Shown here piece by piece: positions 10,498 to 19,122 of a DNA stretch of 64,000 nt. Made by a program: the position numbers and the translations under genes. The stretch spans positions 4,175,501 through 4,239,500 of the forward strand of contig NZ_CP130565.1 in assembly GCF_030534335.1 (NCBI RefSeq). The letters are read 5' to 3'. Below the pieces are notes generated by a model. It was not told the DNA's origin and ran no database searches. It worked only from the letters and a program-made list of their open reading frames with translations. How positions within the stretch are numbered: the first letter of the stretch is position 1; the number at the start of each line of letters is the position of its first letter. This DNA comes from Marivirga harenae. GTDB taxonomy: Bacteria; Bacteroidota; Bacteroidia; Cytophagales; Cyclobacteriaceae.

Positions 10498-10530
10498 TTT
10501 GTTTATTTCAAAAAGCTTTTCCTACATTTG
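10498..10530 (+). promoter_or_regulatory. Promoter of the methionine leader/metYX-hom unit
   Basis: TTTG (10498-10501) and TACATTTG (10523-10530, matching TAnnTTTG) are separated by 21 nt. Transcription would begin near 10536-10540, directly before the aptamer. The match to the phylum consensus is good. Confidence 0.6.
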
Positions 10531-10543
10531 AATTATTAAATCA

Positions 10544-10634
10544 ATTTATAACGAAGAGGTAAGAGACAGGCTCTATGATCCTCTGGCAACCTGATTCAAG
10601 GTGCCAAATCCTGCCCGATAAGGGAAATATAAAT
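10544..10634 (+). promoter_or_regulatory. SAM-I-like riboswitch aptamer
   Basis: Core bases of the SAM-I clan are visible: GGCAACC (10585-10591) facing GGTGCC (10600-10605) for P3, followed by AAATCCTG. By hand the fold is as follows. P1 is 10544-10550 with 10628-10634 (7 bp). P2 is 10555-10559 with 10580-10584, extended by 10562-10565 with 10571-10574. P4 is CCC 10614-10616 with GGG 10622-10624. A pseudoknot can form between CAGG 10567-10570 and CCTG 10610-10613. It should bind S-adenosylmethionine and turn down the downstream methionine genes. The P1 strand ends on the base before the leader-peptide ATG, so SAM binding would bury the initiation region, pointing to translational control. Whether it is classical SAM-I or a SAM-I/IV variant needs a covariance model. 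Confidence 0.85.
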
Positions 10635-10784
10635 ATGAAAGCATTACACAACTCAAGTCAAAGCGTACAATTCGCAGTTCAACAATCAACTGGATTCAAT
10701 TCTCGAATCAAGTTCAGTATTTCAATTAATCACAACGATATTTTTTTAGCTCCCATGCGAATGTGCATGTGCTGTAGTTGTTAA
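10635..10784 (+). CDS. Met/Cys-terminated leader peptide
   Basis: A 49-codon ORF that starts immediately after the riboswitch P1 helix and ends with the residues MRMCMCCSC before TAA. Seven of the last nine residues are Met or Cys. It has no signal peptide, and the middle is polar with Ser, Asn and Gln. The position (between a SAM sensor and metY-metX-hom) and composition suggest a ribosome-stalling leader that reads Met-tRNA or Cys-tRNA supply. It could instead be a conserved small protein in its own right. The gap of 204 nt to metY holds hairpin potential that could couple its translation to metY. Real translation is inferred, not shown. Confidence 0.65.
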   Translation: MKALHNSSQSVQFAVQQSTGFNSRIKFSISINHNDIFLAPMRMCMCCSC

Positions 10785-13306
<2,522 letters not shown>

Positions 13307-13320
<14 letters not shown>

Positions 13321-14500
13321 AGCGGGATTATTCGGATTAGGAGTAGTAGGCTCTGGAGTTTATACTATGCTAAAGCAAAATGAAAAATATGGCATTTCGA
13401 TAGAGAAAATTGCCGTGAAGAACATTGATAAAGCAAGAGAAATAAATTTACCTGATGAAATTCTTACTTCAAAACCGGAGGAAATCTTAGAAAATAACGA
13501 TGTAGATGTCATCATCGAATTAATTAACGAGCCTGAAGAGGCATTTGATATCGTTAAAAAGGCATTCGAAAAAGGAAAATCAGTAGTGAGTGCTAATAAA
13601 AAAATGGTAGCACTTCATCATCAAGAATTGTTGCAACTAAGCGAAAAGTATGGAGTCAAATTCTTTTACGAAGGTGCAGTATGCGGTAGCGTGCCAATTT
13701 TAAGATTGCTTGACCAACATTACAAGTCAGATTCAATAAAATCTGTAAAAGCCATCGCTAATGGGACTTGCAATTTTATTCTCTCAAAAATGACAGCTGA
13801 AAATCAGGATTACGACTCAGCATTGCAGGATGCCCAAGATTTGGGCTTCGCGGAATTAGATCCTTATTCGGATGTAAGTGGTGAGGACACCCGTTTTAAA
13901 TTGGCCATTATGATTTATCATGCATTTGGAATTTTTGTACATCCCAATGCAATCTCTTTGGAGGGAATTAATTATTTGGATGAAATACTTGTGCAATTTG
14001 CTCAAAAGAATAAGTTAAAAATCAAATTAATTGGACAGGCTCAAAAGATCAATGGTGAAATAAAAGCTAAAGTAGAACCGCAATTGGTCAGTGAAAAGCA
14101 AGACTTCTATAACATTGAAAATGAATACAATGGAATATTAGTGGATGCTGAATTTACTGGAGAGCAGTTTGTAAAAGGTAAAGGAGCAGGAAGCTTTCCT
14201 ACAGCATTAGCTGTCTTATCTAATTTAAAGGATTTGAAATATGACTTAGCAATAGCCAAGTCTTCGGTAAAAAAGGAATTTGAATATTCGTTTAATGCTG
14301 CAAAGGAGATTTACTTTATTGGTGGTTTTGAGAATGAATTATCAGGCCTAGATATATTGGAACAAGAAGAAAACTACTATTTAGTAAAAGCGGAATTTAT
14401 ACAGTTAGAGAAATTCAAACAGCAGCAACCCAATCTCTATTGGGTACAAATATCTCAAGATATTTACGATAAAATCAAAAAACATGAGGTGGTGATTTAG
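13307..14500 (+). CDS. hom: Homoserine dehydrogenase
   Basis: NAD(P)-dependent homoserine dehydrogenase (397 residues), reducing aspartate semialdehyde to homoserine, the precursor of methionine and threonine. The Rossmann motif GLGVVGSG lies at 10-17, the catalytic region contains NGTCNFILSKM, and FAELDPYSDVSGEDTRFK holds the conserved Asp and Lys residues. It is a monofunctional form with no aspartokinase domain. The C-terminal about 80 residues are divergent and do not show an obvious ACT motif, so feedback control may be absent or different. Its presence as third gene makes the operon a complete aspartate-semialdehyde-to-homocysteine module. Confidence 0.92.
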
Positions 14501-19040: not shown

Positions 19041-19122
19041 TGCGGATGAAGGGACTCGAACCCCCATGCCGTGAGGCGCTAGATCCTAAGTCTAGTGCGT
19101 CTACCAATTTCGCCACATCCGC
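19041..19122 (-). tRNA. tRNA-Leu (anticodon UAG)
   Basis: An 82-nt tRNA on the minus strand. The acceptor stem GCGGATG pairs with CATCCGC (19116-19122 with 19042-19048). The D arm contains GGCGAAATTGGTAGACGC, and the anticodon stem CTAGA/TCTAG encloses a 7-nt loop with TAG. A short class II variable arm and the T arm GGGGGTTCGAGTCCC follow. The discriminator is A, and CCA is not encoded. Confidence 0.95.

Follow-up and report, generated by a model that had tools for sequence, protein, structure and literature searches.

We found that in the genome of Marivirga harenae the operon metY-metX-hom is preceded by a SAM-I riboswitch and a short leader open reading frame (ORF) that ends in a cluster of cysteine and methionine codons. 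Judged from sequence comparison, this region probably forms a two-stage RNA, in which a leader read by the ribosome for its Cys (and possibly Met) codons is gated by the riboswitch, the likely route being access to the leader start. The anatomy of the leader, its recurrence and its codon pattern were observed directly. Coordinates refer to the window, that is, the whole analyzed stretch of 64,000 nucleotides, and features lie on the + strand unless stated otherwise.

The leader ORF (10635..10784, 150 bases) comprises 49 codons and a stop codon, with ATG at 10635 and TAA at 10782-10784 (translation MKALHNSSQSVQFAVQQSTGFNSRIKFSISINHNDIFLAPMRMCMCCSC). An earlier reading of the DNA letters (hereafter the sequence-only reading) had described this ORF and its MRMCMCCSC end, and both coordinates and translation are as it claimed. 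The putative regulatory codon tail spans 10755..10781, with Cys codons at 10764, 10770, 10773 and 10779 and Met codons at 10755, 10761 and 10767. A second in-frame ATG is located further upstream, within the riboswitch (10575); we prefer the start at 10635 because the leaders of relatives match it. The riboswitch aptamer (S-box; 10543..10635) matches RF00162 over its full length (model 1-108) with 70.1 bits, compared to a gathering score of 44.4 bits, and a whole-genome search with this model recovers the same site, 10543-10635. A predicted -7 promoter element of the Bacteroidota type TAnnTTTG (TACATTTG, 10523..10530; consensus as given in the cited part of PMC9723704) suggests that the transcript likely starts just before the riboswitch.

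Downstream, the operon proposed by the sequence-only reading is largely borne out. metY, encoding O-acetylhomoserine sulfhydrylase (10989..12317; TIGR01326, 677.5 bits), and hom, encoding homoserine dehydrogenase (13307..14500; NF004976), score above the respective cut-offs, whereas the metX gene (12304..13320) can be called a MetX-like homoserine acyltransferase only, as its best models stay below their cut-offs (best model TIGR01392, 299.4 bits, cut-off 500 bits). Elsewhere in the window, a tRNA gene is located on the - strand at 19041-19122 (RF00005, 59.1 bits). An NCBIfam search returned no model for the leader peptide, and blastn against a phage collection gave no match. When the peptide was searched against 59 genomes including its own, the closest orthologue besides the own copy was found in a genome of the same genus (G003, E 2.1e-4), and every remaining match had E > 0.04. 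The search reaches no further than this orthologue because similarity is lost in the leader body.

The genome (4.37 Mb, one contig) contains three SAM-I riboswitches. One of the other two lies ahead of an O-succinylhomoserine-sulfhydrylase-like gene (whose best model falls just short of its cut-off) and has its own leader (MNKQKIYISHNLQIDLNDRSLEFMAISQSTNQMSICCCSNCC); the second leader of the genome ends in SICCCSNCC. The third riboswitch (L001, G000:C1:2855527-2855646) is without a Cys leader. A pattern of three Cys codons plus stop, by which the window leader with its CCSC end is not matched, gave 43 matches in the genome, 30 of which were read and yielded two ATG-started ORFs (L294, L312). 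These were rejected as leaders, since no gene is placed behind either in leader fashion. Ten of the 13 matches outside this reading lie at 528-base spacing. Eleven matches of TGCTGCTGCTAA at exactly this spacing in G000:C1:3816780-3822071 point to a long tandem repeat. A generic Cys-stop pattern applied to 247 genomes of the class was set aside as noisy, since it also matches CTG/GCT repeats.

The arrangement recurs in relatives, before methionine genes of many Bacteroidota. According to Rfam, SAM-I riboswitches are located upstream of metY in 71 of the best 80 related metY loci (20+20+16+15), a set taken from a longer list and leaning to near relatives. Within the 71 regions from riboswitch to metY, 52 contain a same-strand ORF with at least four Cys in its last ten residues. 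On the reverse strand, none of the 71 has such an ORF, and dinucleotide shuffling (30 rounds) yields 0.23 on average (maximum 2). When three Cys suffice, 55 of 71 regions qualify; here the reverse strand yields 1 and the shuffles 1.7 on average (maximum 6). The recurrence of the Cys tail thus indicates that the window leader is no accident. At metH-linked sites, an ORF with at least four Cys in its tail was found in 0 of 19 cases. Among the best 80 metY loci, leaders occur, among other genera, in Marivirga, Pontibacter, Mucilaginibacter, Pedobacter, Solitalea, Cesiribacter, Parachryseolinea, Chryseosolibacter and Splendidivirga, as well as in metagenome-assembled genomes (MAGs) of Saprospiraceae and Chitinophagaceae. 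Further afield, a phylum sample was examined at its 30 riboswitch loci of highest score, one of which (L220, same class) has a Cys-rich ORF; the other 29, including the incomplete L219, had none, though most precede metY. By the rule used, an adjacent Cys leader was present at 0 of 20 class-level sites.

Within the genus Marivirga, each of the ten genomes searched has two to three SAM-I riboswitches. The sequence-only reading had predicted a fixed Met/Cys C-terminus in relatives and had named an unconserved tail or broken frames as evidence against a leader; neither was found, as all eight metY-linked leaders of the genus have an open frame and end in MRM(C/R)MCC(C/S)C, while their bodies can barely be aligned. 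In two more genomes of the genus, the leader precedes an OsmC-like gene, and one of these leaders (L051) shows the reversed order CCCRCMRMCK. Six metZ-like leaders of the genus end in ICCC, followed by two residues and then CC or CCC. An OsmC-like gene is located directly behind the Cys leader at L054, L051, L131, L133, L135, L316 and L319, in some cases with metY next; the label rests on a family match below cut-off for L054 and was assigned by eye for the others.

Riboswitch and leader meet at the P1 helix. In the predicted fold, its 5' strand AUUUAUA (10544..10550) pairs with the 3' strand UAUAAAU (10628..10634), which abuts the leader AUG; the AUG begins at the final base of the aptamer match, and the AU core of the helix is also found in relatives. 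Among the riboswitch-linked Cys leaders of the metY set, 50 of 57 have their AUG 0-12 nt after the aptamer, with the tail in one open frame with this AUG. We divided the 142 sites of a survey into those with an AU-core P1 (TTTATA type) and others, classes that were defined after the data had been seen. An adjacent Cys leader was present at 33 of 46 AU-core sites, mostly at metY and metZ, compared to 0 of 96 others. Among these 96, none of 42 metH sites had an adjacent Cys leader and 3 had a distant Cys-rich ORF. In the metY set, the corresponding counts are 50 of 66 AU-P1 sites and 0 of 5 others. The first ATG lies at most 14 nt from the aptamer end at 107 of 112 AU-P1 sites, compared to 33 of 101 others. 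Of the 93 AU-P1 sites whose upstream sequence was long enough, 59 have the TAnnTTTG element 20-67 nt before the riboswitch, as a raw count.

The survey covers family sites from the upper part of a bit-score list, in partial overlap with the metY set, together with 20 class and 29 phylum picks. L061 and L071 (truncated by contig ends) and L219 (core not found) were left out. Gene labels were derived from sequence motifs; they are unreliable in the metY set, which by construction consists of metY loci only. A distant ORF with three Cys before an unrelated gene (L238, a class site) and an adjacent ORF with only two Cys (L250) were not counted as adjacent leaders. By the same rule, 29 of the 112 AU-P1 sites of survey and metY set lack an adjacent Cys leader, and 20 of these still retain an ORF of 25-51 codons whose AUG lies 7-10 nt downstream of the aptamer. 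In the AU-P1 lineages Algoriphagus, Cyclobacterium and Echinicola, AUG and ORF are kept with few or no Cys in the tail. Four AU-P1 leaders without a Cys run (L155, L097, L079, L104) are, by eye, rich in Met near their end (e.g. FYMCIQSMHNDNFMPLMH). Such leaders suggest a drift from Cys to Met reading.

The flanks of P1 extend the helix towards the AUG with pairs that are specific to each lineage (49 loci). When relatedness among the 49 loci is ignored, pairing of the extension scores 519 with the own locus and 418 (sd 14) with permuted partners, and none of 2000 permutations reaches the observed value. The test was done without seven of the 57 leaders, in which the AUG is more than 13 nt away or not after the aptamer, and L163 was skipped. 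Ribosomes of Bacteroidota initiate translation without depending on Shine-Dalgarno pairing, and secondary structure near the start tunes this step, as stated in the part of PMC6847099 considered here. Given both properties, a P1 helix stabilized by SAM is a plausible block on leader initiation. The sequence-only reading had placed the leader "stacked behind" a SAM sensor. The sensor does precede the leader, but beyond being stacked the elements look serially coupled, with P1 abutting the AUG.

It is possible, though rather unlikely, that the riboswitch uses an ordinary expression platform or acts on RNA stability, and that the Cys leader is a separate attenuator downstream. The two modules are separated in some Chitinophagales (L177, L187, L190, L196), in which the leader lies about 170-360 nt from a riboswitch that, by eye, is of the terminator type with its own terminator-like hairpin; P1 gating is therefore not universal. 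A Cys-tail ORF is also present at two of nine metY loci without a detected riboswitch (L197, L198). On the other hand, the 0-12 nt between aptamer and AUG in 50 of 57 leaders leave no room for a separate platform, and the adjacent leader is restricted to the AU-P1 class. As an observation on the Chitinophagales themselves, the leaders of L177, L187, L190, L196 and L198, where the riboswitch is far off or undetected, end in Met-Pro, and most of them have the hairpin ATGCC-GTAA-GGCAT around the stop codon.

We analyzed the codon pattern of the tail in 56 non-identical leaders (L179 and L197 were left out and one of 57 was merged due to identical last ten residues). Cys accounts for 40% (315/784) of the last 14 residues compared to 1.7% of the body, a 22.6-fold enrichment, and Met for 10.5% compared to 1.5% (6.7-fold), while Lys, Leu, Gln and Phe are depleted. 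Met occurs within the last 12 residues of 48 of the 56 leaders. The C-terminal residue is Cys in 43, and the longest Cys run comprises at least three residues in 47. The tail Cys codons are a mix of TGT (199) and TGC (116), so the third position is free, which argues for codon meaning rather than a fixed RNA word. The sequence-only reading had described a Met/Cys cluster. The enrichment of both residues agrees with this, but it is Cys that stays constant, and hairpins located just before the Cys run may account for part of the Met enrichment. At L159, Leu replaces Met with the hairpin retained, which suggests that some Met may be driven by the RNA.

Leader bodies are unrelated between lineages and change freely, while the Cys tail persists. 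Across 81 adjacent leaders (2453 codons; two of 83 with short bodies were left out), the two off-frames contain 156 and 134 stops, frame 0 having none by construction. The high synonymous ratio predicted by the sequence-only reading was contradicted: in all 14 close pairs, non-synonymous codon changes in the body exceed synonymous ones, as raw counts and not as a rate test. Hardly any change affects the last ten codons in the closest pairs; more distant pairs differ there more. On comparative grounds, this pattern marks an ORF that is retained because it is read and because of its terminal codons, and not because of its product. As in an attenuator, a short ORF with clustered codons for amino acids of the pathway is located upstream of an amino-acid operon, and comparison points to a frame kept open from start to cluster with a body free to change. 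By contrast, the conserved sequence of an arrest peptide of the SecM type is absent, as the lineages share composition only.

Clusters of the CCCC type could bind metals or undergo oxidation, so that the nascent chain, rather than charged tRNA, might sense metal or thiol redox or act as an arrest peptide. We consider this highly improbable, since the number, spacing and order of the Cys residues vary freely, unlike in sequence-specific arrest peptides, and since the genes downstream are sulfhydrylases of methionine synthesis.

The RNA around and behind the tail is structured. At the window locus, a hairpin CAUGC/GCAUG is predicted within the MRMCM codons (10754..10769), and hairpins just before the Cys run are found in many relatives. 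A small predicted hairpin crosses the stop codon (10777..10789), the last codons pairing with downstream ACAA. Behind the stop, a consensus hairpin UUUGGAUU...AAUCUGAA (10801..10825) was derived from eight Marivirga loci; its changes are one-sided only, with no two-sided ones, and the window folded alone prefers another pairing. It is followed by a predicted hairpin GGAAAGG...CCUUUUC (10828..10846), with similar AAAGG..CCTTT arms in other Marivirga loci, and by a predicted weak hairpin (10916..10932) before a T-rich stretch (ATTTATTATTT), which was not accepted by the terminator scan. Compared to shuffles, structure is in excess in the tail (mean z -1.15) and behind the stop (mean z -1.13) over 51 loci, whereas the 60 bases before metY are less structured (mean z +0.43), an argument against sequestration of the metY start. 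Complementarity of at least 7 nt between tail and post-stop sequence was found in 20 of 59 cases compared to 5.8 expected.

This excess of structure and complementarity, together with the hairpins directly before the Cys run, would also fit a tail that serves as a hairpin plus a U-rich UGUUGUUGC for pairing or for pausing of RNA polymerase, the ORF being incidental. Such a pure RNA element is quite improbable in our view, because in unrelated leaders the tail is in the Cys frame beside a stop, third codon positions vary, Met and Cys are mixed in many orders, and one open frame links the tail to the AUG at the riboswitch. A codon-reading leader thus remains our preferred interpretation.

With respect to termination, the scan found no intrinsic terminator in the window region, which makes Rho the likelier terminating agent there; no classical pair of competing antiterminator and terminator hairpins emerged. 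In relatives, 15 of 54 post-stop regions contain a hairpin of -7 kcal/mol or lower before a T-rich stretch, compared to 3 in rough 2-mer shuffles, suggesting that some lineages may use intrinsic terminators. The scan in relatives may be insensitive, as it found terminators at only 8 of 42 metH sites. Scan counts inside leader bodies (28 of 51 vs 5) were discarded, since the Cys codon run itself counts as T-rich. The C/G ratio is 1.68 in the leader body, 1.66 behind the stop and 0.96 late in metY; the C-rich, G-poor leader RNA is compatible with Rho-dependent termination of unshielded RNA.

One clade of Cytophagales has a conserved post-stop hairpin of 12 pairs, five of them with two-sided changes, and an internal motif CCNNGTGACRGG. 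Its alignment comprises 11 of 13 clade members (L129:1387-1446, L130, L131, L133, L134, L136, L137, L142, L146, L148, L150), L139 and L149 being left out. A model of this hairpin matched 7 of 118 family genomes, once each (L316-L322). All seven matches follow a Cys-rich ORF at a distance of 12-100 nt and have a SAM core upstream; the next gene is metY, or an OsmC-like gene followed by metY. The training alignment included some of these loci or close relatives of them.

From these data we infer the ligand response, the stalling, the terminating agent and the sign of control as follows. In the first stage, SAM binding would close the AU-core P1, bury the initiation region of the leader and stop its translation. 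When SAM is low, ribosomes would translate the body, which is free in sequence, and then the terminal cluster of Cys (and Met) codons, where scarcity of Cys-tRNA, possibly also of Met-tRNA, would stall the ribosome and alter the RNA structure around and after the stop. A ribosome held on the tail under low SAM and scarce Cys or Met tRNA would thus permit read-through into metY-metX-hom. At high SAM, P1 would be closed, the leader unread and the RNA bare, leading to early termination, while low SAM with ample Cys and Met would let the leader be read and the ribosome be released, with partial or full termination.

This polarity, in which low SAM together with low Cys turns the operon on, is derived from pathway logic. 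MetY and MetZ consume sulfide that is also needed by cysteine synthase, and this competition would fit an opposite sign, in which low cysteine turns metY/metZ off and saves sulfide for cysteine synthase. No antiterminator was found that would fix the sign. We regard this reversed polarity as unlikely, since attenuators of this leader type are generally regarded as switching on when their amino acid is scarce, as is proposed for the cysS motif in the relevant part of PMC8632094.

Polycysteine leaders as such are already known from Actinobacteria and Rhodobacterales. The sequence-only reading had pointed to mycobacteria, and indeed the cited part of Seliverstov 2005 (PMC1262725) predicts leaders with Cys codons before cys operons of Mycobacterium and Propionibacterium and before cbs in Bifidobacterium; it reports no conserved terminator hairpin and proposes Rho as one possibility. 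Canestrari 2020 reports short polycysteine ORFs in mycobacterial cys operons that are leaderless according to its title and, according to a citing passage, act by translation attenuation. The Marivirga leader shares with these attenuators a short ORF upstream of sulfur genes and a run of Cys codons near the stop. It differs in that Met codons are mixed in, the genes are metY/metZ, the host belongs to Bacteroidota and a SAM-I riboswitch lies ahead, whereas no riboswitch is described in the passages on mycobacteria. Nor is it leaderless, as the predicted promoter element at 10523 and the 93-nt aptamer precede the AUG. According to the part of PMC8632094 cited here, uORFC-8-2 of Rhodobacterales likewise is an upstream ORF with tandem Cys codons in a stem and predicted ribosome-mediated attenuation, but has two Cys codons, cysS as target, an intrinsic terminator and no riboswitch.

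SAM-I riboswitches usually act through a terminator or through Shine-Dalgarno sequestration. Here, the aptamer is fully alike, and this expression platform is apparently replaced by the start of the leader ORF. Control of an upstream initiation signal by a SAM riboswitch, with translation acting at a distance before a methionine gene, is described for SAM-II of Sinorhizobium metA (PMC9373788, in part); that riboswitch is of another class and controls metA itself, and its abstract describes no amino-acid codon cluster. The odc1 motif of alphaproteobacteria (PMC8632094, in the section cited) has a predicted ribosome-binding site in P1 with an upstream ORF behind, but there the ligand is unknown and an 11-residue peptide is conserved. 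For Bacteroidota, leader-peptide attenuation before amino-acid operons is mentioned in a passage on a flavobacterial transcriptome (PMC9723704), and short ORFs reminiscent of leader peptides are mentioned in one on Bacteroides thetaiotaomicron (PMC7366714). Among the titles and abstract openings of the open-licence papers listed, we found no Cys leader gated by a SAM riboswitch and none in Bacteroidota. Within this literature, the SAM gating and the Bacteroidota host are the new side of the finding.

Overall, our results raise an about even chance of a SAM-I subclass in Cytophagales, Sphingobacteriales and at least one Saprospiraceae MAG, in which the leader ORF is the expression platform and a serial gate for SAM, Cys-tRNA and Met-tRNA controls homoserine-ester sulfhydrylation, while Chitinophagales keep the Cys reader detached. 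If true, a riboswitch for a small molecule would act through translation of a sensor read by the ribosome instead of its own terminator, and the end product SAM and the building blocks Cys and Met would be integrated on one RNA. Attenuators have received little attention in Bacteroidia, whose ribosomes initiate without Shine-Dalgarno pairing; for a large part of this class, the arrangement would explain in general terms how methionine operons are controlled. It suggests that one mRNA may check two or three signals of sulfur metabolism in series before the pathway is turned on.
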